Assembly: GCA_017533825.1 (NCBI GenBank)
Contig: JAFWIE010000036.1
Location: forward strand, 1 to 64,000
Source of the DNA: Atopobiaceae bacterium
GTDB lineage: Bacteria; Actinomycetota; Coriobacteriia; Coriobacteriales; Atopobiaceae
DNA length: 64,000 nt
Direction: 5' to 3'
Numbering within the stretch: the first letter of the stretch is position 1; each line of letters starts with the position of its first letter. Below the pieces are notes generated by a model. The model was not told the DNA's origin and searched no databases. It saw only the letters and a program-made list of their open reading frames with translations. The translations under genes were made by a program, and so were the position numbers. Shown here piece after piece: positions 767 to 62,304 of this stretch.

Positions 767-1600
767 CTAGATGAGTCCGAGGTACTTGAAGGCGTTGAAG
801 AGCCCGTCTTCGTTGACATCGTCGGTGATGTAGTCGGCCGCTTCCTTGATCTCGGGTCCGCCATTGCCCATGGCGACGTTGTAGGCGCACAGCTCAAACA
901 TCGAGAGGTCGATCTTTGCGTCGCCGAAGCTGATGGTGTCGGCCTGGCTTGCGCCGAGATGCTCGAGCAGCACTTGGATGGCGTGCTTCTTTGTGATGTC
1001 CTTGGGGCCAAGGTCGCCAAAGAGCGCCTGCTCGTCCTTGCCGCCCCACGTGTTTGCCTCCATGTCGGGGAACTCCACCTTGGAGTCAAGGTGGTCCTGG
1101 TAGCTCGAGAGAATGAAGCTGACCTTGTTCACGTCGTCGCGATACAGGTCGTCGGTGCGCGTCATGCCGTCAATGAAGGCTTGGCCAGCGCCTGCTGCCT
1201 GCTCTTCGCTCGCGCCTTTGCCCATGGCGTACTTCTTCATGGTTTCGGGTGCCTGCTCCACGAACCAGCTGTTAATGTACATGCCGCTGTTTGCCTCGAG
1301 ATAGAAGCCAAGGTGGCGCTCGTTGCACCAGTCAACGATGTGCTTGACCTGCTCGACGCTCAGAGCTTGGTGCATGACGACCTCGCCCGCGTCCTCCACA
1401 TAACCGCCGTTGGCACCGATCATGCCGTCGAGATCGGGAAGGTCACGCTGGGCGATCTCTGCCTTCGAGCAACCTGTGCAGATGTACACCTTGTGGCCGT
1501 TGGCCCGGGCAAGATCCACGGCCTTTGCGGCTGATTCCGGGCACTTGGCGTCGTAGTCGATGAGTGTGCCGTCGACGTCCAGAAACACGATTTTGCTCAT
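767..1600 (-). CDS. HAD-superfamily (Cof-type, IIB) phosphatase
   Basis: This 277-residue cytoplasmic hydrolase has haloacid-dehalogenase motif I FLDVDGTLID at residues 6-15 (nucleophile D8, second Asp D10), motif II near YICTGCSK, and motif III/IV SFGDAKIDLSMFELC near residues 219-233. Size and motif order fit the Cof/YwpJ branch, whose members dephosphorylate sugar phosphates, flavin or pyridoxal phosphates; the substrate cannot be read from sequence. The ATG at 1598-1600 follows a GGAGAGG ribosome site on the minus strand. The gene ends in TAG. It is divergent from the 1712 gene and separated from galE by a hairpin, so it is probably monocistronic. Confidence 0.9.
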   Translation of the reverse strand: MSKIVFLDVDGTLIDYDAKCPESAAKAVDLARANGHKVYICTGCSKAEIAQRDLPDLDGMIGANGGYVEDAGEVVMHQALSVEQVKHIVDWCNERHLGFYLEANSGMYINSWFVEQAPETMKKYAMGKGASEEQAAGAGQAFIDGMTRTDDLYRDDVNKVSFILSSYQDHLDSKVEFPDMEANTWGGKDEQALFGDLGPKDITKKHAIQVLLEHLGASQADTISFGDAKIDLSMFELCAYNVAMGNGGPEIKEAADYITDDVNEDGLFNAFKYLGLI

Positions 1601-1711: not shown

Positions 1712-1990
1712 ATGGCGCAGAACGACAAGGGTAATCGTGGCAACGACTGGAATTCGTTCATGCAGAGTCGTGAGGCCCAGGTGATCCTGTACGGCATCGT
1801 AGTGTTCTTCTGTGCGTATCATGCAATCGACGCGGTGAGAGAGCTCATGTCGCCCGAGCGCTCGGCGGCACTCGTCGAGGCGATGGGGCAGACGGCGTAC
1901 TACGTCGTTACCGTTCTTCGCGCGGTCGTGTGCGTTGGTACGGGCGCTGCGTTTGGTCGCATGGCACTTCGTGCCTATCAGGAGAAGTAG
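1712..1990 (+). CDS. Small two-helix membrane protein of unknown function
   Basis: I do not recognise a family for this 92-residue protein. A polar N-terminus (about 20 residues) is followed by a hydrophobic segment around residues 25-45 (VILYGIVVFFCAYHAIDAV) and a second around residues 60-85 (AYYVVTVLRAVVCVGTGAA), so both ends probably lie in the cytoplasm. A strong AGGAGG site lies 6 bases upstream of the ATG. It sits 27 bases ahead of the phosphoesterase/EIIB/ROK fusion in the same direction, so the two are likely co-transcribed. It could be a membrane partner of that fusion, but this rests on position only. Confidence 0.7.
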   Translation: MAQNDKGNRGNDWNSFMQSREAQVILYGIVVFFCAYHAIDAVRELMSPERSAALVEAMGQTAYYVVTVLRAVVCVGTGAAFGRMALRAYQEK

Positions 1991-2017: not shown

Positions 2018-4231
2018 ATGGCAGTCTTCGTTACCGGCGACATTCACGGTTGGCTCGACATCGGCAAGCTCACTCCCGAGCGATGGCCCCAAGGCACGAA
2101 GCTCAGGCGTAGCGACATCGTGGTCATATGCGGAGACTTTGGCCTCGTGTGGAACAACCCCATTCGCTTGGAAGAGAAGTTCTTCATCGACTGGCTCGAC
2201 TCGCGGCCTTGGACCACGGTGTTTGTGGACGGCAACCACGAGAACTATGATCTGCTCGATAGCTTCCCCGTAACGACCTGGCGTGGCGGCAAGGTTGCCC
2301 GCCTGCCGGGAGCGTGCAACGTCATCCACCTCTTGCGTGGCCAGGTGTACGAGATGGGGCGGGACGGCCGATGGTTCTGCATGGGCGGCGCACCGTCGCA
2401 CGACATCCAGAGCCGCGTGCAGGGCGTAAGCTGGTGGCCGCGGGAGGTGCCCAGCAAGGACGAGATGGACGAGGGGTGGGCGAACCTCGAGCGCGTGAAC
2501 TTCTCGGTGGACTACGTCTTTACGCATGAGGTGCCGCGCAACCTGCGACGCTTCGCGATGGCGCGCCACTACGATCCGAGCCGCGTGCAGGACGACCCAC
2601 TCTCTGCCTATCTGCAGAAGGTCGAGGACCGCCTCGATCGTGGGCGTCTGAAGATGTGGTATGCCGGCCATTATCACGACGACATCATGCTGCGCGACAA
2701 GCGCCATTGTGTGCTGTACAACCAGGTGGTTCCCCTTGGCGAGCTGCCGGATGGCAAGGTCCATCGCCACATGCCCTACTGCCAGGAGTCGTGGTTTGGC
2801 ATCGCAGGCATCAGCAAGCATTATCGCGAGTGGGTCCTCTCGCGTCGCATCATGGGGTGTACCATCACGTGGTCCGACAACGAGAACATCAAGATGGCGA
2901 CCAACACGATGTTTGGCAGAATCACGTTCTACCCGCAGCCGAAGGGTCCCGAGGTTGTTGAGATGCGCATCGTGCGCAAGATTGACGGCGCTCCGATGTT
3001 CCGCGTGCGCTTCGAGCTCAACGACGAGCTGCGTGCGCAGGAGCTCTTCCTAGAGATGACCAGCGTGCTCGAGCATACCGACACGCGGCCTCCGACGCGC
3101 GTTCTGCTCTGCTGCTCGGCCGGCATTACCTCCGTCATGTACCAACGCAAGCTCAACGAGCTTGCCGAATCGCTTTCACTTCATTATGACTTCACTGCCA
3201 TTCCGCTTGATGCCGCCATCGCGAAGGGCGGGACCTACGACGTGGTGATGGTCGCGCCGCAGCTGGGATATCGGCGTGCTGACGCACAGAAGGCCTATCC
3301 CAACGCCATGGTCATCGAGATTCCCGGTGAGATATTCGCACGCTTTGACGTGGACGCTACGCTGCACCTGCTCTTCGATGCGATGGGCGAGGGTGTTGAG
3401 CAGGCGCCGGCAGGCAGGGACATCCAGATCGTCCGTCCCATCGACAACACCAAGGACGTCATGGTCATCTCGGTGATCCACCGCACAGATACGTCGGTCA
3501 TCGGGTATCGCGTCTTTGCGGATAAGGGCATCGCGGTCGACGGCAACATGTACAAGCGGCACGTGAACTTCCGTGATATCGAGGACGTGCTCGCGACCAT
3601 CAAGGTCGATGGCATCGACGTGCGCAATCTCGATGCGGTGGGCATCGCCATGCCTGGTGTGATCAACCGCGATTCCGTCTCGATGCCGGCGTCTGACATT
3701 CGCGACTATGACCTGGGGCGCGAGTTGGAGCGTCGCTATGGCATCGAGGTCTACATGGACAATGACGCCAATGCGGCGGCGATGGGATGCTACATGAGCC
3801 AGACGGACTTCGACTCGGTCGTATTCCACATCCAGCAGACGGGCATGCTTGGGTGCGGTGAAGGAGTCATTGTCGATGGACACCTGGCGAAGGGGCGCCT
3901 GAACTACGCGGGCGAGCTGGAGCCGCTCAGCGGCATACTCAACTTCACGGCGGACCCTTTCGAGCTGGTGTGGACCTACGAGGGGATGACGGAGGTGGTC
4001 GCGGGCTACCTCACGGCGAGCATCTGCACGGTGTCGCCCGACGTCATCTACGTCGCGGCGCCCCTCGTGCGCGACATGGACGAGCTGCGCGAGTGGCTCT
4101 GGCGCACCATTCCCATGGCTTATGTGCCTGAGCTGCGCTGGGTGGGGGACTATCGTGAGTTGATGTACCTCGGCGAGTTGGCGCTCTGCATCGACAAGCT
4201 CACCAACCCACGGCCGCATCGTAAGTGGTAG
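2018..4231 (+). CDS. Metallophosphoesterase - PTS EIIB-like - ROK-like fusion protein
   Basis: This 737-residue cytoplasmic protein has no signal or membrane segment. Residues 1-270 form a calcineurin-type phosphoesterase with all metal motifs visible: FVTGDIHGW, VVICGDFG, FVDGNHENYD, a TH and AGHYHDD. Residues about 295-360 form a linker domain that also begins the related protein at 51494. Residues 361-450 resemble lactose/cellobiose-type PTS EIIB: VLLCCSAGITS with Cys365/Cys366 at the phospho-cysteine position, then DVVMVAPQLGYR. Residues 470-737 resemble a ROK-family domain (VGIAMPGVI, YMDNDANAAAMG), but I see no DxGGT phosphate loop or CxCGxxGC zinc site, and GEIGH is replaced by GELEP. 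It is therefore more likely a sensor or regulator than a sugar kinase. AGGAG upstream supports the ATG. The domain assignments are firm; the combined function is unknown. Confidence 0.85.
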   Translation: MAVFVTGDIHGWLDIGKLTPERWPQGTKLRRSDIVVICGDFGLVWNNPIRLEEKFFIDWLDSRPWTTVFVDGNHENYDLLDSFPVTTWRGGKVARLPGACNVIHLLRGQVYEMGRDGRWFCMGGAPSHDIQSRVQGVSWWPREVPSKDEMDEGWANLERVNFSVDYVFTHEVPRNLRRFAMARHYDPSRVQDDPLSAYLQKVEDRLDRGRLKMWYAGHYHDDIMLRDKRHCVLYNQVVPLGELPDGKVHRHMPYCQESWFGIAGISKHYREWVLSRRIMGCTITWSDNENIKMATNTMFGRITFYPQPKGPEVVEMRIVRKIDGAPMFRVRFELNDELRAQELFLEMTSVLEHTDTRPPTRVLLCCSAGITSVMYQRKLNELAESLSLHYDFTAIPLDAAIAKGGTYDVVMVAPQLGYRRADAQKAYPNAMVIEIPGEIFARFDVDATLHLLFDAMGEGVEQAPAGRDIQIVRPIDNTKDVMVISVIHRTDTSVIGYRVFADKGIAVDGNMYKRHVNFRDIEDVLATIKVDGIDVRNLDAVGIAMPGVINRDSVSMPASDIRDYDLGRELERRYGIEVYMDNDANAAAMGCYMSQTDFDSVVFHIQQTGMLGCGEGVIVDGHLAKGRLNYAGELEPLSGILNFTADPFELVWTYEGMTEVVAGYLTASICTVSPDVIYVAAPLVRDMDELREWLWRTIPMAYVPELRWVGDYRELMYLGELALCIDKLTNPRPHRKW

Positions 4232-17038: not shown

Positions 17039-17872
17039 TTGCTTGCGAGGCTCAAACATAAACTTGCGTCAGAGCGCGGCGCGTCGTTGTCGATGGCGCT
17101 GATGCTGTTCTTGGTGTGTTCGGTCGTTGCATCGATTGCCCTTACGGCCAGTACGGCTTCTGTGGGGCGGCTGAGCAGGTTGGAGGATGCCGAGAAGAGC
17201 TATTATCATGTCACGTCTGCTGCGAGCGTGGTCTGGGACATCCTGCAGGGAGACGATCCTGACGCGCCTGGGTTGCCAGTGGAAGTCGAGTATGGATGCG
17301 AGGCCCAGTGGCAAACTGGTGCGTGGGAGCCGGATGACGATACGTGGACGCTGAGCATTGACGGAAAAGACGTGGGCGATCGAGCCGGTAAAGGCGCGAC
17401 GCTCTTCGAGATTGCCACATGCGACTTGCTGTTCGGCACGAAGTCAACGCTCAAAGACGGACTGCTAATCGAAGCGGATGCTGCCAAGAACCGATTCCTC
17501 GAGCCGGATTGGGCTGCGGAAGAACCGGAACCCCTTGAGGTTACTTTCTCTGCAAGGCCGTACGATGACCCCAGTGATTCCGTTACTATGGCTCCTCCCG
17601 GGACCATGAAGGCTGGGTATGGATTCGGCGAGGACGATGTCGTGAGGGTTAAGGTCACCCGGAATGAAGACCGTACCTTTACCTTCGTCTTCACGGACAG
17701 CTCTACCGATAGCACGTCGCCCGCCACATATACCCTTGTGGCGTCCGTTGACATCACGGAAGACCCCGTTGAGGGTGCGGATGGTGTCTCCGATGGCGAG
17801 GAACGAGAACTGAGCTGGAAGACGACGGTTGTCTGGACGCCACTGTCTCTGAGCGCAGGAGGTATATCGTGA
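17039..17872 (+). CDS. Prepilin-like protein, GspK/PilX-like
   Basis: This 277-residue protein has a short basic N-terminus, LARLKHKLASERG, directly before the hydrophobic stretch ASLSMALMLFLVCSVVASIA (residues about 15-34), the layout of a type IV prepilin-class signal cut after Gly. No glutamate is present at +5 of the mature form, which is characteristic of GspK/PilX-type tip pseudopilins. The remainder is a soluble domain with no family I recognise. A TTG start is chosen because GAGGAG lies 7 bases upstream. It is the first of four co-directional pilin-like genes. Its stop overlaps the next start (GTGA). Confidence 0.72.
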   Translation: MLARLKHKLASERGASLSMALMLFLVCSVVASIALTASTASVGRLSRLEDAEKSYYHVTSAASVVWDILQGDDPDAPGLPVEVEYGCEAQWQTGAWEPDDDTWTLSIDGKDVGDRAGKGATLFEIATCDLLFGTKSTLKDGLLIEADAAKNRFLEPDWAAEEPEPLEVTFSARPYDDPSDSVTMAPPGTMKAGYGFGEDDVVRVKVTRNEDRTFTFVFTDSSTDSTSPATYTLVASVDITEDPVEGADGVSDGEERELSWKTTVVWTPLSLSAGGIS

Positions 17873-18255
17873 GTAAACCCCAACGTGTGATTGGTGCTCT
17901 TCGGTGTCGCGTTTTGTGCGACCGCGGCGAGACGATGGCAGAGACGCTGGTATCCATCCTCATCAGTGCCTTGGCGTTGTTGTTGCTCGCTACGGCAATC
18001 GGTACCTCCGTGCGGGTGGTGATGCGGGGTCGCGAGCATGCCGCAAGCCTCTTTGCTGTTGAGAACAACTTGGTAGAGAATGCGGTCGATTCTTCTTCCC
18101 CCCTTCCCGCGGCTGAAACTGTGGAATGCAGCGTCCCGCTGAGTCTTGAAGAGGTATCAGACATGCCGAACGAGACTGAGTCCGTGAACGTGTACTCAGG
18201 AACCAACGAAGATGGTGGGGACGCGATCTATCTATATATGAGAAACGAGGGTTAG
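17869..18255 (+). CDS. Minor prepilin-like protein, GspH/I-like
   Basis: This 128-residue protein begins with a 21-residue leader, then RGETMAETLVSILISALALL. If cut after Gly, the mature protein starts ETMAE with glutamate at +5, as in type IV pilins, but with Glu rather than Phe/Met at +1. A single hydrophobic helix is followed by about 85 soluble residues. The GTG start overlaps the preceding stop and has AGGAGG 7 bases upstream. Its small size and position suggest a minor pilin of the GspH/GspI type. It lies 9 bases before the next pilin gene. Confidence 0.72.
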   Translation: MSKPQRVIGALRCRVLCDRGETMAETLVSILISALALLLLATAIGTSVRVVMRGREHAASLFAVENNLVENAVDSSSPLPAAETVECSVPLSLEEVSDMPNETESVNVYSGTNEDGGDAIYLYMRNEG

Positions 18256-18264
18256 GGGCCAATC

Positions 18265-18933
18265 ATGACGGTGCATTCCCATCCTCAAGCAAACACGATG
18301 GATCGACGGTCTGCTGGCTTCTCGCTTGTGGAGATGCTGGTAACGACGCTCATCTTGGGCTTGGTATCGACGCTTCTGGCTACGGGCATCCCCGTTGCCG
18401 CAGACACTTATCGCAAGACGGTGAATTCCTCTAACGCGCAGCTGGCTCTTTCCACCACAATGACGGTGCTGCGTAGTGAGCTTGGCACTGCGACAGAGGT
18501 GTTGGCCTATGGTAACCAGGTGTACTACCAGTCTTCCGAAGGCTATTGGGTGTCCATAGGTAACAGCGATGCTGTAGAAGGCGCGCACGGATTGACGAAG
18601 CAGTACTGGATGGGCAGCCCGGATACGTCTGTAGAGGACGATGTTACCGATACGTCTGACGAGGACGATGTTACCGATACGTCTGACGAGGACGATGTTA
18701 CCGATACGTCTGACGAGGACGATGTTAACGGTCTCATAGCCGATGATGATGCCCCGGCGACTCGTTTGCTGCCGGATGACGTGATTACTGATGCGCTCTG
18801 GGTGAGTTTTGGAAGCGTGGCGTGTACAGGAAACGTCGTGGAATTCAATGGGTTGGCCGTACGGGATCGCTCTGGGAATGAGCTTGCGAGTGCGGGCGAC
18901 TCCTATCAAGTGCTTCTGCGTTTTGTAGAGTGA
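18265..18933 (+). CDS. Type IV prepilin-like protein (GspJ/PilW-like) with in-frame tandem repeats
   Basis: This 222-residue protein has the classic prepilin cleavage/methylation site SAGFSLVEMLVTTLILGLVS (cut after Gly18, Glu at +5). The soluble part contains four copies of a nine-residue acidic unit, DTSDEDDVT, from residues about 120 to 155, encoded by a 27-bp tandem repeat. The length and position after smaller prepilins fit a GspJ/PilW-like minor pilin. The acidic repeats could bind calcium or act as a spacer; this is inference. The stop overlaps the region of the next start. Confidence 0.82.
   Translation: MTVHSHPQANTMDRRSAGFSLVEMLVTTLILGLVSTLLATGIPVAADTYRKTVNSSNAQLALSTTMTVLRSELGTATEVLAYGNQVYYQSSEGYWVSIGNSDAVEGAHGLTKQYWMGSPDTSVEDDVTDTSDEDDVTDTSDEDDVTDTSDEDDVNGLIADDDAPATRLLPDDVITDALWVSFGSVACTGNVVEFNGLAVRDRSGNELASAGDSYQVLLRFVE
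18622..18729 (+). repeat. 27-bp tandem repeat, four copies
   Basis: The unit GATACGTCTGACGAGGACGA followed by TGTTACC is repeated head to tail at 18622, 18649, 18676 and 18703. Copies 2 and 3 are identical; the first and last differ at a few bases. Because 27 is a multiple of three, gain or loss of units changes only the length of the acidic DTSDEDDVT stretch in the pilin. Confidence 0.95.
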
Positions 18934-18950
18934 GGCGTGAGGTGGTTCTC

Positions 18951-21311
18951 ATGAAAGATCGGCGCGACGAACGTGGTTTTACGCTGGTGGAGACCCTCGT
19001 GGCAGTTGCTGTCCTCGTCATCTTGATGACGGTGGCATTCATTGCGGTGCAGAACTATCAGCGAACCCTCAAGCAGGTGGAGCTTGACGAGGCGGCCAAA
19101 GAGATTTTGATCGCAGCGCAAAACCACCTTACGATGGCTAAGGCTCAAGGCGAGCTTGATGGTCTGGCGGAGTTCGGAGAAAACAAGATGCGCGGTGGAA
19201 TTGACTACTACGTGTTCTACGAGCCGGACGACGGCTTGCTCTTGGATCCAGGGAGTGCGCTATCGGTGATGCTACCCCCGTTTTCCATTGACGATAACGT
19301 TCGGATGGGTGGCAGTTATGTGATTGAGTACAACCCAGAGACCGCGGTTGTGACGAACGTCTTTTATGTTGATGCGGGGATTAAGGCTAAGCTGAACGGA
19401 GGACAGGGCTTCAAGAGCGAGGATTACGATGACTTGTTCAAGAAATACTTGGGAGAGGAAAAGAGTGCCGAGCGCCTAAAGGGCTACGGTGCCAGTAATC
19501 AGGTCATAGGGTGGTACGGAAGCGAGAACCTTGAACTGAAGAAGCCGAAGAAGCTCGTTGCACCGACGATCAAGATTATCAATGCGGAACGCCTCGAGGT
19601 GGAAGTGACGTTCAAGACGAGCGATTTGACCGGTGTGCTCAAGGATGCCATCATACAGCTCACCATGAAGGGGGCGGTGAGTGGCCACACTCAGGTGGTG
19701 ACCCTACCTTCGAGCGTAAGTGATATTGGTGATAATGTAAGTCAATTCCCACCAAGTGACGACTCCGCCATTGGTTATACATCTAACCGATACGTGCTTG
19801 ACGACATCACCTCTGCGAATGGGCACTTTGCTCAGAAATGGTGTGGTGAATTGGATGATCAAGCGCTCATTCCTGGCGAGAACATAACACTACAGGTCAA
19901 AGTGTTCTCAAACACGGAGCTTGCGACGATTGCAAAGAGTACCGCCAAGAAGACGAACAGCCTCTTTGCCTCCATAAAGAAGTCAGCTGGTGCGTCGACA
20001 ATGACCATCGCGAACATACGCCATCTCGAGAATCTGGATCCTGCGATATCCGGTTACGACAAGGAGGCGCTCGGTGACGCATTTGCGACCGCTGCAGTCC
20101 AGACGAAGAACATGTCGTGGCCAAAGTTCAAGAATGCCATTGCCGAGGGGGGTGGCCCAGTCGCTTCTGCAGTTGTGGTTTACGACGTAGAGGGCAATCC
20201 GTTCGGTGCTGATGAGCATGGGGGGAAGAGCTCCTTCGCTCCCATCAAGCCCGCGTATCTCACGAGCTATGACGGACAAGATCACAAGATTTCGGGAGTG
20301 GTCGTAGACGTGGACGAGAACGATGCGGGGCTGTTTGGAGCTTTCGACCCGACGGCTAGTTGCAGCGTCGAGAATCTGGCGCTTGTCGACTTTGACGTGA
20401 AGACTGCGGATGGCAATGCTGGCGCCCTAGCAGGGTCTCTCAACGATGTGGAGGTGAGCAACGTCATAGCATACGCGACTGACAACAAGCAGGGTGAGGT
20501 CACAGGGTCTGGTAACGTCGGTGGTCTGGTCGGGAGCATGACGGGTGGTTCCTTGCGAGCTACGGGAGCGTCGCTCTATGTTAAGGCAACCGGTAATGGC
20601 TCGGCAGGCGGACTCGTGGGAATGGCTTCCGGTAACGCGACGATTTCCAGCAGCTATAGTGGTGGCCACACGACTGAGGGAGTGTATGCGACCAACGAAG
20701 CGCCGACTGCAGAGGTCAAGACTTTCATCAACGTTCAAGGGTCTTCTGGCGTTGCGGGAGGATTTGTCGGGACGGTGCAGTCCGCGACTGTTAAGGATTG
20801 TTATGCAACGACGTCGGCTAAGGCCGCTAACAGTGTCGGCGGATTTGCGGGTAGTGCTTCGGGCGGCTCCATAAAGAACTGCTATGCGACTGGTTTGGTG
20901 AGCGGTGCCGATGAGGAGTCAAAGGCCGGTGCGTTTGTCGGCACTGCGGCGACGAGTCCGAGTCTAACGCTGGGGGAGTGCAAATTCTTCGAGATCACTA
21001 ATGAAGGCATGCCGATTGCCGGGGATGGACGCGAGATCAAGGCCGATGAGGTCTCTGCAATAGATAAGGACATGGAGACTTACAACGCTTTCTACAGGGC
21101 CGAAGATGCAGGTGCCGCAGCGAAGCCCTACGATGCGATGCTCGCGAAATGGTACAGTAGCGCATACCCATATCCTTCGGTGGTCGACCTTGCCCCGATC
21201 ACTTCCATTGATTACCTCAAGGATATTGATTACCTCAAGGATTGCTTCGTCGCAACGCATTATGGCGACTGGCCTTCGCCGGAGACGTTGATTGTCAATA
21301 CCAAGTCATGA
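18951..21311 (+). CDS. Large type IV prepilin-like protein with GLUG-type repeat domain
   Basis: This 786-residue protein begins MKDRRDERGFTLVETLVAVA, a textbook type IV prepilin site (cut after Gly9, Glu at +5), followed by one long hydrophobic helix. Residues about 50-190 look like a pilin body. Residues about 480-680 contain repeated GLUG-like units: GNVGGLVGSMTGGSLRATGA, GSAGGLVGMASGNATISSSY, SGVAGGFVGTVQSATVKDCY and NSVGGFAGSASGGSIKNCYA, a beta-helical repeat found in adhesins and proteases. At nearly 800 residues it is far larger than a normal pilin, so it may present an adhesive domain at a pilus tip. The ATG at 18951 has GAGGTGG upstream and is preferred to GTG 18930. No pilus motor or prepilin peptidase gene is in the window. 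Confidence 0.82.
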   Translation: MKDRRDERGFTLVETLVAVAVLVILMTVAFIAVQNYQRTLKQVELDEAAKEILIAAQNHLTMAKAQGELDGLAEFGENKMRGGIDYYVFYEPDDGLLLDPGSALSVMLPPFSIDDNVRMGGSYVIEYNPETAVVTNVFYVDAGIKAKLNGGQGFKSEDYDDLFKKYLGEEKSAERLKGYGASNQVIGWYGSENLELKKPKKLVAPTIKIINAERLEVEVTFKTSDLTGVLKDAIIQLTMKGAVSGHTQVVTLPSSVSDIGDNVSQFPPSDDSAIGYTSNRYVLDDITSANGHFAQKWCGELDDQALIPGENITLQVKVFSNTELATIAKSTAKKTNSLFASIKKSAGASTMTIANIRHLENLDPAISGYDKEALGDAFATAAVQTKNMSWPKFKNAIAEGGGPVASAVVVYDVEGNPFGADEHGGKSSFAPIKPAYLTSYDGQDHKISGVVVDVDENDAGLFGAFDPTASCSVENLALVDFDVKTADGNAGALAGSLNDVEVSNVIAYATDNKQGEVTGSGNVGGLVGSMTGGSLRATGASLYVKATGNGSAGGLVGMASGNATISSSYSGGHTTEGVYATNEAPTAEVKTFINVQGSSGVAGGFVGTVQSATVKDCYATTSAKAANSVGGFAGSASGGSIKNCYATGLVSGADEESKAGAFVGTAATSPSLTLGECKFFEITNEGMPIAGDGREIKADEVSAIDKDMETYNAFYRAEDAGAAAKPYDAMLAKWYSSAYPYPSVVDLAPITSIDYLKDIDYLKDCFVATHYGDWPSPETLIVNTKS

Positions 21312-49887: not shown

Positions 49888-51390
<1,503 letters not shown>

Positions 51391-51395
51391 GACAA

Positions 51396-51426
51396 CGTGA
51401 CAACGGGGACGGAGAGTGTCGTCACG
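51396..51426. repeat. 31-bp palindromic repeat element, copy 2
   Basis: CGTGAC...GTCACG ends flank GGGGACGGAGAGTGTC. This copy overlaps a longer hairpin, GACGGAGAG (51408-51416) / CTCTCCGTC (51429-51437), in the gap after the 6-phospho-beta-glucosidase gene, where it could act as a terminator. Confidence 0.6.
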
Positions 51427-51493: not shown

Positions 51494-52921
51494 ATGGCGC
51501 AGACCTTTGACCTTCGCAGCTGGATTCGCGAGCAGCCCCACAAGGGGTACTTGGCCAACCTCGACGACGATGACCACTTCGTGCTCGAGACCGACTTTGC
51601 CACGGCGATGGTCAACTTCTACGACATGGCACCTGATCCAGAGATTGTCGAGCTGCACATCGAAGAGAAGGCTACAGGCGAGGCCAAGTTCTTCTTGCAC
51701 TTTCATCCTGTGGACCGGGACCACTCCATCCAGCTCTTTGGTGAGATGGTCCAAGCGCTCCTCGCGATTCGTGGCCATCAGCGAACTGAGGTGCTTCTGT
51801 GCTGTACGGCGGGGATGACCACGTCCTTTTTTGCTCAGCGGCTCAACCAAGTGGCTGAGGCCATGGGCCTTGATTGGGACTTCTCGGCCGTGAGCGTCAC
51901 CGAGGCATACGAGCATGGGCGCGACAAGGCCGCCATTCTCGTTGCTCCGCAAATCGGATATCAGGCCAAGCGGGTGCAGCAGGTCATGGGCGACGTGCCG
52001 GTGCTCCCGATTCCCACGGCGATGTTTGCTGCCTACGACGCGGCCGGCTGCTTGGAGTGGGTGCGTGACGAGCTCGCCTCGCGTGCGCGAGAAGCAGCCG
52101 AACATGCGAACGAGGCGGACTCCATGCAGACGGAAGGCGACGGACGGATTCTTGTCATCGCGGTGCATGCGGCTTCCGGTGAGGTGACCATTCATCATCG
52201 CGTCTATGACCATGGGATCGTCGCCACGGAGGGACGCGTCATCAAGCGCCGCCTGACGCTTGCCGACATAACCGACGTAATCGACACGCAGCGATGCGCG
52301 TGCAAGGCGGGTGGCAAGGTCGATGCTGTGGGCGTTGCGCTTCCGGGCGCCGTGCATGAGGGGCGCGTTAACATCAAGGTGACCAGAGAGGTCGATTTGA
52401 CGAATGGGACGGACGGATTCGTCATGGGTGACTTCCTCGCACAGCGCTACGACGTGCCTGTCTATCTGTGCAACAACGCGAACGCGGCGGCGTTGGGTTG
52501 GCGAGAGGCGCATCCCGAGTATCAGGACGTGACGTTCTACTCCCAAGCAACTGGCTGGGCGATGGGCGGCCAAGGCCACGTGGTCGGCGGAAGGCTGTTG
52601 GAGGGCGCGCACGGCAACGCCGGCGAGGTCAGGCTCATCGTCAACCGGTTCTCCTTCTCGAACCCGCTGCACTACAACGCCTTCAACCCCGTCGACGTCA
52701 TCGAAGTGGTGGGGCAAGTACTCGCCATGGACTGCGCAACCTTCGACCCCGAGGTGGTTGCGGTGCGTTGTGACCTGCTACCCGACATGGAGGAGGTCGC
52801 AGAGGAGCTTGCCAAGTACGTCGACCGGAGCCAGCAACCGAAGCTCGTCCACGTGTGCGACTACGACGAATGCATTCTTGCCGGCATGCTTACGCGATGC
52901 CGGCAAGAGCTGCGGGCGTGA
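51494..52921 (+). CDS. PTS EIIB-like - ROK-like fusion protein (paralogue of the 2018 gene)
   Basis: This 475-residue cytoplasmic protein matches the last two thirds of the protein at 2018 in domain order. Residues 1-100 are the shared N-domain (compare DPEIVELHIEEKATGEAKFF with the other copy's PEVVEMRIVRKIDGAPMF). Residues about 98-190 are EIIB-like with VLLCCTAGMTTSFF (Cys103/Cys104) and AAILVAPQIGYQ. Residues about 215-475 are ROK-like with VGVALPGAVH and YLCNNANAAALGW; there is no DxGGT and no zinc-site cysteines. The phosphoesterase domain is absent. The adjoining 6-phospho-beta-glucosidase suggests it senses PTS phosphorylation or a sugar phosphate. ATG 51494 has GGGAGGGG 8 bases upstream; ATG 51464 is an alternative. 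Confidence 0.85.
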   Translation: MAQTFDLRSWIREQPHKGYLANLDDDDHFVLETDFATAMVNFYDMAPDPEIVELHIEEKATGEAKFFLHFHPVDRDHSIQLFGEMVQALLAIRGHQRTEVLLCCTAGMTTSFFAQRLNQVAEAMGLDWDFSAVSVTEAYEHGRDKAAILVAPQIGYQAKRVQQVMGDVPVLPIPTAMFAAYDAAGCLEWVRDELASRAREAAEHANEADSMQTEGDGRILVIAVHAASGEVTIHHRVYDHGIVATEGRVIKRRLTLADITDVIDTQRCACKAGGKVDAVGVALPGAVHEGRVNIKVTREVDLTNGTDGFVMGDFLAQRYDVPVYLCNNANAAALGWREAHPEYQDVTFYSQATGWAMGGQGHVVGGRLLEGAHGNAGEVRLIVNRFSFSNPLHYNAFNPVDVIEVVGQVLAMDCATFDPEVVAVRCDLLPDMEEVAEELAKYVDRSQQPKLVHVCDYDECILAGMLTRCRQELRA

Positions 52922-58778: not shown

Positions 58779-59255
58779 GTGATTCTTTACCATGGAAGCA
58801 ACGTGGAGGTGCGAGAACCGGTACTGACACGCTCGCGTGCCGCCCTCGACTTTGGTGTTGGGTTTTACACGACTACAGATTACAAGCAGGCAAGGAAGTG
58901 GGCGATGCGTGTGTCGAAGTGGCGTGGGGGAGAGCCGACGATCACGGTGTTCGAAACGAATGAGGAAGCGTGGTCGCGCCTGTCCATCCTCCGATTTGAT
59001 AGCGCAGGCAAGGACTGGCTGGAATACGTGGTGCGGTCCAGAACTCTGCAGGCCGTCGATTCCCGGCATGACGTCGTGGCTGGTCCTGTTGCGGACGACC
59101 GAACCGTGAACGTCATCAACCTGTTCCTCGAGGGCACTATCACAGAGAGTATGGCGCTCGAGCTGCTGCTGCCGATGCGCTTTACGGATCAGTGGGCTAT
59201 GAAGACCGATGCCGCCATAGAAGCGCTGAATCATAGGGAGACGATTGCATTATGA
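58779..59255 (+). CDS. DUF3990 protein, putative ADP-ribosyltransferase-fold toxin
   Basis: This 158-residue cytoplasmic protein has features matching DUF3990: LYHGSNVEVREPVL at the start, ALDFGVGFYTTTDYKQARKW, LRFDSAGKDWLEYVV, DVVAGPVADD and a late TDQWAMKTDAAIEAL. The HGS, the GxGFYTT segment and a conserved late Gln resemble the R/H-S/Y-E/Q layout of ADP-ribosyltransferases; DUF3990 is grouped with that fold as far as I recall. The GTG start has TAGGAGGTG upstream. Its stop overlaps the next start (ATGA), and the three genes form a tight cassette typical of toxin-antitoxin loci. No activity is proven by sequence. Confidence 0.8.
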   Translation: MILYHGSNVEVREPVLTRSRAALDFGVGFYTTTDYKQARKWAMRVSKWRGGEPTITVFETNEEAWSRLSILRFDSAGKDWLEYVVRSRTLQAVDSRHDVVAGPVADDRTVNVINLFLEGTITESMALELLLPMRFTDQWAMKTDAAIEALNHRETIAL

Positions 59256-59497
59256 GCAGAGTGAGTGCCACCTCTTTGCGGTATTACGACCATGCGGTGA
59301 CCGACCTCATCGTGGAGAAATACAACCTCGATCGCATGGAAGCCCTTCGACGATTCGTTTCCTCGAAGACGCATGCGTGGCTGGAGCAGACCGAATACGG
59401 CCTGCAGTGCTTCGGCGCACCTGGACTGTTTGACATATGGGAGAGCGAGGTCGTCACGGGGAGCCCTCTCAACTCCGTCTACCTGCGAGGTGATTGA
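59252..59497 (+). CDS. Small cassette protein, putative antitoxin-like partner
   Basis: This 81-residue soluble protein reads SLRYYDHAVTDLIVEKYNLD then EALRRFVSSKTHAWLEQTEY, followed by GLFDIWESEV. It resembles small partner proteins that I recall between DUF3990 and DUF3791 genes, with a helical body and a YG...FDIWESE end, but I cannot name a family. It overlaps the DUF3990 stop by 4 bases and is followed 2 bases later by the DUF3791-like gene, so all three are translated together. Confidence 0.75.
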   Translation: MSRVSATSLRYYDHAVTDLIVEKYNLDRMEALRRFVSSKTHAWLEQTEYGLQCFGAPGLFDIWESEVVTGSPLNSVYLRGD

Positions 59498-59499
59498 CG

Positions 59500-59748
59500 A
59501 TGCCCGAAGCGATAAGCGAAGAGATGTGGTTCTTCATGTACCTGCTGGAGTGCTACGCCGAGTTCAAGACCAGACCTACCGGTGATGTGCTCCGGGAGTG
59601 GGACGAGCGCGGGATGACGCAGGAAATCTACGACGGGTATTTCCAGTATCATCAGGAGCGCCTGGAGAACGCGTATGACGACATTGACTGTCTCATGGAG
59701 ACTGGGCAGCATGCCGCGCTGCATCCTGAGTATTGGGGCAGGAATTGA
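59500..59748 (+). CDS. DUF3791-like small protein
   Basis: This 82-residue helical protein reads ISEEMWFFMYLLECYAEFKT, then GDVLREWDERGMTQEIYDGY and FQYHQERLENAYDDIDCLME. It fits DUF3791 in length and pattern (an N-terminal helix with YAE, a middle L..W...G, a C-terminal H.E...N...DID). DUF3791 genes often lie beside DUF3990 genes. The ATG at 59500 is 7 bases after GAGGTG; TTG 59494 overlapping the previous stop is possible. The role is unknown, perhaps antitoxin or regulator. Confidence 0.75.
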   Translation: MPEAISEEMWFFMYLLECYAEFKTRPTGDVLREWDERGMTQEIYDGYFQYHQERLENAYDDIDCLMETGQHAALHPEYWGRN

Positions 59749-60129: not shown

Positions 60130-62304
60130 GACAAGGTTGTGTTTCTCGTGGACCGCATCGAGCTGGGGACGCAGTCACTCGACGAGTACCGCAACTTTGC
60201 CGATGATTCGCAAAGCGTTCAGGCGACGGAGAACACAGATGTGCTGGTCGCGAAGCTCAAGAGCGACAATCCAGCCAATACACTCATCGTCACGTCCATC
60301 CAAAAGATGAGCAACATTGTTGACGATGTGACGAACACACGAGACCTCGAGCGAATCCGAGCCAAGCACATCGTGTTCATTGTGGATGAGTGTCACCGCT
60401 CAACCTTCGGCGATATGATGCAGACGATACGCAAGACGTTCCCCTGCGCCATGTTCTTTGGCTTTACGGGCACGCCTATCCATGACGAGAATCAGAAGAA
60501 GCAGAACACCACGGTGGATGTGTTTGGCGACGAGCTTCACCGCTACAGCATCGCCGACGGCATTCGAGACCACAACGTGCTTGGCTTAGACCCGTACAAG
60601 GTGCTTACGTATCGTGACAAGGACTTGCGCGAGAGGGTGGCGTTGGACAAGGCGAAGGCGAGTTCGGTTGCCGATGCCTTGGCGGATTCTGCGAAGAAGA
60701 AGGTGTACCTGCGCTTCATGGGGCTGCCCATGGCCGATACGCTGCGAGAGGTGGATGGCAGCGTGGTTCACGGCATAGAGCACTACATCCCAAGCAGCCA
60801 GTACCGTGGGACCGACGGATGCGGTAATCCCGAGCATTTGGCGAAGGTCGTGGAGGATATCGCTGACGGATGGACCACGCTCAGCTAGGCGGGCAAGTTC
60901 CATGCCATCCTAGCTACCAACAGTATTGCTGAGGCCATCAGCTACTACCGGCTATTCCGTGACGGGCATCCCGAGCTTAAGGTGACAGGTCTCTTTGATC
61001 CAAACATCGACAACAACGAGGGGGCCCTATACAAGGAGAACGGACTACTCGAGCTTCTGGAAGGCTACAACAAGCTCTATGGCAAAGACTACGGCATCCC
61101 GAGCCATGCAGTCTTCAAGCGTGACGTGGCCGCAAGACTTGCCCACAAGCGTCCGTACGCGGGTATCGAGAAGAAGGCGGATGAGCAGATTGACCTGCTC
61201 ATAGTTGTCGACCAGATGCTCACGGGGTTCGACTCCAAGTGGGTGAACACCCTGTACCTGGATAAGGTCCTGACCTACGAGCACCTAATCCAAGCATTCA
61301 GCCGTACCAATCGACTCTTCGGACCCGATAAGCCCTTCGGGACGATACGCTACTACCGCTATCCCCACACCATGGAGCAAAACGTGGAGGATGCCGTGCG
61401 TCTTTACTCCGGGGATAGGCCCATGGGCCTCTTCGTGAGCAAGCTTGACGCCAACCTGCACTGGGCGAACGACGTGTACGAGCAGATCTGCAGCCTCTTT
61501 GCGGCAGAAGGGGTCGAGGACTTCGAAAGCCTGCCTTCTTCCGATGCTGCTAAGGCAAAGTTCGCGAAGCTCTTCAAGGAGCTTGCGGATACGCTCGAGG
61601 CAGCCAAGATTCAAGGCTTCACATGGGATGAGCTCTCCTACACACTTGATGACGGCACTGAGGTCACGCTCATTTTTGGTGAGAACGACTATCTCGTGCT
61701 TGCCCTCCGCTACAAGGAGTTGTTTACTCCGGGAGAGGAAGGGGCGAATCCCGACGTGCCCTACGACATTCATGGCTACCTCACCGAAATCGACACGGGT
61801 CACATCGACACCGCTTACATGAACGCTAACTTCGAGAAGTGGCTCAAGCGACTCTCTGCAGGTGGGGATGCTGCTGAGTTGGAGGCCATACTCGATGAGT
61901 TGCACGGCTCATTCGCTCGGCTCGACCGGGAGCAGCAGCGGTATGCTGACCTCGTCATACAAGCGGCACAGGGCTTCGACCTCGTGATACGGCCGGACAT
62001 GACCTTCATGGACTACATCAATGAATACCAGGCGCGTGGAAAGGCCGGACAAGTTCAGGCGCTGGTGAATGCCCTTGGCGTCAATGCCGAGAATCTGCGC
62101 TCAATCATGGCTCAGCACGTGACCGAAGCAAACATCAACGAGTTTGGTCGACTTGATGCGCTCAAGAAGACCGTCGATGCCAAGAGCGCTCGGGCGTACT
62201 TCTCCAAGCGCGCCGGCAGGCCAGTTCCGCCGTTCAAGGTGTCCATCATGGTCGACAAGCTCCTCCGGGAGTTCATCCTCTCTGGTGGATTTGACCTCGA
62301 TTGA
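60130..62304 (+). pseudogene. hsdR: hsdR, 5'-truncated and interrupted by an amber codon
   Basis: The frame starts within the helicase core at DKVVFLVDRIELGTQSLDEY. It has DECHRSTFGDMM (motif II), FFGFTGTP (motif III) and, after TAG at 60886-60888, continues in the same frame as AGKFHAILATNSIAEAISYY, DQMLTGFDSKWVNTLYLDK and HLIQAFSRTNRLFG (motif VI) to a normal C-terminus at 62304. The N-terminal endonuclease domain and ATP-binding Walker A motif are absent, replaced by the hsdS fragment. No hsdM is visible. Translation could restart at 60982, but a working restriction subunit is excluded. It is the end product of a deletion plus a point mutation. Confidence 0.88.

Follow-up and report, generated by a model that had tools for sequence, protein, structure and literature searches.

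The window, i.e., the complete 64-kb stretch of DNA that was analyzed, contains two genes of closely related domain architecture. The first (ORF 2018-4231, plus strand) is open over its full span and encodes a protein of 737 amino acids. The second (ORF 51494-52921, plus strand) encodes 475 amino acids starting from an ATG with a plausible ribosome-binding site, in a frame that is open from position 51416. Common to both ORFs is a domain of 98 residues (N-domain), followed by a lactose/cellobiose-type EIIB domain of the phosphotransferase system (PTS) and a ROK-fold domain (Table 1). Of the two, only ORF 2018-4231 carries a metallophosphoesterase (MPE) in front of this common block. The first-pass annotation had proposed this domain order for both genes, a phosphoesterase capping the first protein and a recurrence of the architecture. 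Pfam and a profile of 89 relatives agreed with the order, a PF00149 match and the conserved metal-binding motifs corroborated the phosphoesterase, and the architecture was found in five copies in the genome and in hundreds of relatives. The AlphaFold model of the whole 737-residue protein reached a pLDDT of 83.5 and a pTM of 0.64.

Three of the five members encoded by the host genome lie elsewhere than in the window. These paralogues together with the hundreds of relatives exclude a chance origin. The source is a draft genome of 147 contigs, which might suggest that the architecture is an artefact of assembly or annotation of a single metagenome-assembled genome. The probability of this is negligible, since the same reading frame occurs in dozens of independent genomes from two phyla. 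A literature search, outside which most subscription journals lay, found no published description of an EIIB-ROK fusion architecture. Both genes apparently belong to a family of gut-bacterial proteins without earlier description.

Table 1: Features of the two fusion genes and their close neighbors in the window.
Feature	Position	Strand	Evidence
HAD-type (Cof-like) hydrolase, divergent, near first gene	767..1600	-	PF08282, E 4.2e-48
Small protein of 92 aa, probably membrane, 27 bp upstream of first gene	1712..1990	+	no confident family
MPE domain, first protein, residues 1-263 including linker	2018..2806	+	PF00149, conserved motifs
N-domain, first protein	2807..3100	+	alignment; AF2 model of the same domain in a paralogue
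PTS EIIB (Lac/Cel/Chb type), first protein, phospho-acceptor candidate Cys366	3098..3400	+	PF02302; full-length structure match
Pseudo-ROK, first protein; NDAN kept, without DxGGT, Zn motif and GG	3455..4231	+	PF00480, Foldseek, motif comparison
GH1, 6-phospho-beta-glucosidase type	49924..51390	+	PF00232, E 9e-116; NCBIfam
N-domain, second protein	51494..51787	+	alignment; genome scan put it at C20:51503-51787
PTS EIIB, second protein, phospho-acceptor candidate Cys104	51788..52090	+	PF02302; 1h9c match
Pseudo-ROK, second protein, catalytic Asp replaced (NNAN)	52130..52921	+	PF00480, motif comparison

Relatives of both upstream neighbors of the first gene were found again near MPE-fused genes, the HAD hydrolase in sister genomes (L165, L166) and the 92-residue protein in genomes G144 and G139. 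The GH1 gene ends 103 bp upstream of the ATG of the second gene and is co-directional with it.

Rfam and tRNA scans of the 64-kb window gave no match. Elsewhere in the window a 7060-residue ORF (21565-42747, plus strand) with a lipoprotein-like start is probably the gene of a giant surface protein; no Pfam family was matched by residues 1-478. Just upstream lies a cluster of prepilin-like ORFs (17039-21311, plus strand), one of them with an N_methyl motif (PF07963). Two small ORFs, of which the second is DUF3791-like, follow a DUF3990 protein (58779-59748, plus strand), and the group resembles a small toxin-antitoxin-type cassette. The R subunit of a type I restriction system (60139-62304, plus strand) is split over two adjacent ORFs (SWI2/SNF2, then EcoR124_C) and is apparently broken, or carries a sequencing frameshift.

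EIIB and pseudo-ROK domains

The EIIB domain was recognized by PF02302 with 26.7 bits in the first and 37.3 bits in the second protein (Pfam cut-off 23.6). Four of the five paralogues of the genome, scanned as whole proteins, scored above the gathering threshold. The profile of 89 relatives matched the chitobiose IIB protein 1h9c with an E-value of 2.9e-15, aligning residues 360-461 with residues 3-104 of 106 and thus the whole EIIB; the EIIB of the second protein matched the same structure with an E-value of 8.3e-8. The middle domain, which had been proposed to be a PTS EIIB with a phospho-cysteine loop, could have fallen outside of the EIIB folds. It fell inside over its full length, and the cysteines of the P-loop are Cys366 in the first and Cys104 in the second protein. 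With the EIIB proteins of the lactose/cellobiose/diacetylchitobiose class (PF02302; 1h9c, 1iib) the family has in common the full-length domain, the P-loop cysteine, T/S residues and the PQ(I/V) motif. The cysteine, the loop threonine and the Pro-Gln pair were invariant in all 122 members compared. In contrast to an ordinary PTS EIIB, the family's copy sits inside a soluble protein without EIIC, and at one locus (L104) a family member is accompanied by EIIA and EIIB genes of the ordinary kind.

The C-terminal domain was assigned to PF00480 (ROK) with 53.2 bits in the first and 45.4 bits in the second protein (Pfam cut-off 22.9). The profile of 89 relatives matched ROK structures as well (2hoe, E 3.2e-12), and a Foldseek search with the AlphaFold model of the 737-residue protein returned ROK structures as the best matches with a probability of 1.00. 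In order to judge the ROK motifs, the ordinary ROK kinase of the same genome (G000:C10) was aligned with 87 family members. Like ROK sugar kinases (PF00480; G000:C10), the family has the ROK fold and retains parts of the sugar half, namely the structural PG (85 of 87 members), the N of ND (81) and the E of GE (73). In contrast to these kinases, the phosphate-1 motif DxGGT is not conserved, with arginine the commonest residue in the aspartate column and no GG. The segment of the zinc motif CxCGxxGCxE is deleted in 87/87 members, the sugar/zinc histidine is missing, and the adenosine-site glycines (GGG in the kinase) are lost. The catalytic aspartate of the ND motif is replaced by asparagine in 60 members and kept in 24, among them the first protein of the window (NDAN). 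For this protein the aspartate is thus not a mark of death; the missing loops are. The absence of the ATP loop DxGGT and of the zinc cysteines, noted previously for the window alone, was thus confirmed across 87 members, and no intact motifs of an ordinary sugar kinase were found in the C-terminal domain.

With DxGGT, zinc motif and adenosine glycines gone and the catalytic aspartate mostly asparagine, an ATP-dependent kinase activity of the ROK domain is, judged by its motifs, very unlikely. The sugar kinase reading was dropped, since the motifs fail against the ordinary ROK kinase of the genome itself. The EIIB site is invariant and the kinase motifs are lost; therefore, selection has maintained the phosphorelay cysteine but not the kinase.

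This pattern could also indicate a soluble kinase driven by the PTS, in which the EIIB phospho-cysteine would directly phosphorylate a sugar or sugar derivative bound by the ROK domain. ROK would then replace the membrane EIIC, and ATP would not be needed. DhaK/L/M is such a soluble PTS-dependent kinase and offers a precedent, the phospho-acceptor cysteine is invariant, and it is the ATP loops that are gone while PG, N and E of the sugar half are kept. However, the ROK sugar site itself is eroded, since the aspartate is mostly asparagine and both the sugar/zinc histidine and the CxCGxxGCLE segment are missing. A kinase of this type is therefore improbable. A wider version, in which EIIB as phospho-cysteine donor and the former kinase ROK as acceptor work together within one chain as a sugar kinase or as a sensor, soluble and powered by the PTS, with an opposing phosphatase in cis in one clade, must be regarded as quite improbable.

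ROK folds without kinase activity are known from Mlc/NagC and MecR2, and the best Foldseek matches included Mlc (1z6r), the Mlc/EIIB complex (3bp8) and the ROK anti-repressor MecR2 (4ija). Unphosphorylated EIIB-Glc sequesters Mlc. By analogy, the ROK domain could act as a scaffold or anti-repressor that binds or sequesters proteins, with EIIB phosphorylation switching the contact. Two members (L103, L081) have an RpiR-type regulator gene at a distance of 31-32 bp, which fits such a role. However, these two are the only regulator neighbors, and while Mlc and NagC carry an N-terminal helix-turn-helix, no convincing match to a helix-turn-helix family was obtained for these proteins (Pfam, NCBIfam), the N-domain being alpha-beta5-alpha. 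No DNA-binding domain was found in the family proteins. Moreover, Mlc binds a separate EIIB domain, whereas in the family EIIB sits in the same chain and belongs to the Cel and not to the Glc class, and EIIB-Glc and EIIB-Cel have different folds. We consider a scaffold of this kind possible though doubtful.

N-domain and metallophosphoesterase

The N-domain of 98 residues was predicted as an alpha-beta5-alpha fold with a pLDDT of 91.6 when the copy of a paralogue was folded alone. A Pfam scan of family members gave no convincing match for it. In 30 relatives the domain was confined, within the genomes scanned, to frames with the fusion architecture or to fragments. The best structural match, a TriTu immunity protein, was too weak for an assignment (Foldseek E 0.065, probability 0.99, TM 0.54), and so were the matches of the TriTu Pfam model in three members (best E 0.003). 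An FFLHFEL motif is nearly invariant in the N-domain, its histidine being replaced by arginine in 24/24 MPE-fused members.

Scanned alone, residues 1-263 of the first protein matched PF00149 (Metallophos) with an E-value of 4.9e-8. The calcineurin-like motifs GDxH, GD, GNH[ED], H and GHxH are all present, with D8/H10, D40, N73/H74, H170 and H218/H220 as their residues in the first protein. The corresponding motifs GD-H, GD, GNH, H and GHYH were invariant in eight fused and stand-alone relatives, and GDIHG, GDFG and GNHEN were found in 24/24 fused members scanned. In a tree of 87 members the MPE-fused proteins grouped as a single, fully supported clade of 17 proteins; the fusion arose once. L064 was rejected as an exception inside this clade; its ORF call is overlong and its MPE begins near residue 208. 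At one MPE-fused gene (L165:9698-13748 in G144) Y_phosphatase3 genes lie on either side, and a histidine phosphatase and a HAD hydrolase are close.

Stand-alone MPE proteins which are 58% identical to that of the window are encoded at L104 and L121. There the MPE gene lies downstream of the family member with a gap of 4-6 bp. At L158 (G146) a family fragment in an odd, possibly misassembled ORF is followed by an MPE. At L157, L159 and L160 MupG adjoins the MPE and no family member is found. Thus, the MPE does not need a fusion-family protein and is an independent part of the phospho-sugar locus. It appears to have joined the family by two routes, fusion and neighborhood.

Distribution and gene neighborhoods

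In the host family Atopobiaceae, 42 of 140 genomes were positive, with up to eight copies each; at the level of the order, sampling of 107 genera gave members in 4. A scan limited to a single genome for each species yielded 272 relatives and is the sole source of the Erysipelotrichaceae counts. The best 80 of these 272 came from Atopobiaceae or Coriobacteriaceae metagenome-assembled genomes, Erysipelotrichaceae, Coprobacillaceae and one Selenomonadaceae metagenome-assembled genome. Named carriers are Eggerthia catenaformis OT 569 (L100) and the strains An134 and An173. Bacillota and Actinomycetota sequences fell on opposite sides of the tree (87 members, root at midpoint). The paralogues therefore appear to have multiplied separately in the two phyla, and the tree makes one or more transfers between them likely.

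The host genome encodes HPr and EIIA-Lac. Among genomes at least 90% complete, EIIA-Lac was present in 23/23 family-bearing and in 64/78 family-free genomes (one-sided p 0.02). An EIIA-Lac/EIIB gene pair occurs twice in the host genome with identical scores (G000:C50, G000:C106), likely on a duplicated contig.

The neighbors of roughly 90 loci included no conserved operon partner common to all members. At most of these loci a PTS gene is absent from the range of two genes, and the neighbors are instead a mixture of housekeeping genes (argC, folD-like, purB, fmt). Phospho-glycosidases (GH1, GH4, MupG) were enriched within two genes of family members (12/313 versus 9/855, p 0.003) and phosphatases of four folds more weakly (16/313 versus 21/855, p 0.02), with p values that are uncorrected for relatedness and a query set drawn partly from the neighbors themselves. 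GH1 neighbors recurred at L071, L130 and L143, and NCBIfam models of 6-phospho-beta-glucosidase matched four GH1 genes next to family members. In one Erysipelotrichaceae clade (L117, L122, L133, L144) a histidine phosphatase gene ends at most 5 bp from the family gene.

At L104 (G140) the order is EIIB, EIIA-Lac, a divergent GH4, MupG, the family member and the stand-alone MPE; L121 (G151) has the same layout without EIIB in the stretch covered. The link to the PTS that had been suggested from the window gains support from such loci with EIIA-Lac, EIIB, GH4 and MupG. In these two sister genomes a family member thus follows MupG, which recalls the recovery of MurNAc-GlcNAc in S. aureus by MupG and the PTS MurP (PMC6262408).

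The diversity of the neighborhoods, mostly without PTS genes, would suit an EIIB that is not phosphorylated but serves in ligand binding or as a structural module, in a protein whose unrelated metabolic role differs with its neighborhood. In contrast, the cysteine, threonine and Pro-Gln pair are more strongly conserved, over 122 members from two phyla, than most of the protein. This explanation is unlikely. We know of no EIIB-ROK fusion protein from the S. aureus MupG locus.

Proposed function

We propose, with a probability of roughly one half, that the family consists of soluble PTS-linked regulatory proteins which are not sugar kinases, with EIIB as the input, the pseudo-ROK domain as the reader and a partner as the output. 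EIIB would most likely be phosphorylated by EIIA-Lac~P at low PTS sugar flux and be dephosphorylated at high flux. The pseudo-ROK domain may have been retained for binding, so as to read the state of EIIB, a sugar or sugar-phosphate, or both. The N-domain probably either constitutes the output partner or makes contact with it. In one clade this role would fall to the MPE, either in cis (ORF 2018-4231) or in trans, from a gene that directly follows another paralogue. Under the control of EIIB and ROK, the MPE would hydrolyse a sugar phosphate or a similar phosphorylated compound. From their sequences, the proteins look like internal sensors of the state of sugar uptake. As suggested in the first-pass annotation, they may sense PTS phosphorylation or a sugar phosphate, and the phosphoesterase may act on such a product. 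In favor of the proposal are the full-length EIIB match, the EIIB residues kept in all members beside the lost kinase motifs, the ROK fold with Mlc and MecR2 among the best matches, HPr and EIIA-Lac in the host genome, EIIA-Lac in all nearly complete family-bearing genomes, the gene order at L104 and L121, the fusion of the MPE in a single clade and the enrichment of phospho-glycosidases. Against it speak the many loci with no PTS gene nearby, the partly neighbor-derived query set, the MPE next to MupG at loci that lack a family member, and the failure to find a DNA-binding domain.

The known roles of EIIB domains are those of a transport component and of an input to DNA-binding regulators. 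The closest precedents for the family are the EIIB-bearing PRD regulators and the Mlc-EIIB contact. As in CelR, LicR and MtlR (CelR, PMC3478281), an EIIB-like regulatory input is part of a soluble multidomain protein. Unlike in these PRD regulators, neither helix-turn-helix nor PRD was found in the family (Pfam, NCBIfam), which carries a pseudo-ROK domain instead. The family would thus work like a PTS-responsive regulator, yet does not belong to the PRD, ROK-kinase or Mlc families, whose defining features it lacks.

In this family EIIB is instead joined to a dead sugar kinase, and Atopobiaceae of gut and rumen, with their relatives, carry as many as eight such genes in a genome. If the proposed function is true, these bacteria would have a way of reading PTS flux without a classical PRD regulator, and the contact between ROK and EIIB that is known from Mlc would occur here naturally within one chain. 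One clade would tie the reading of PTS flux to a phosphatase.
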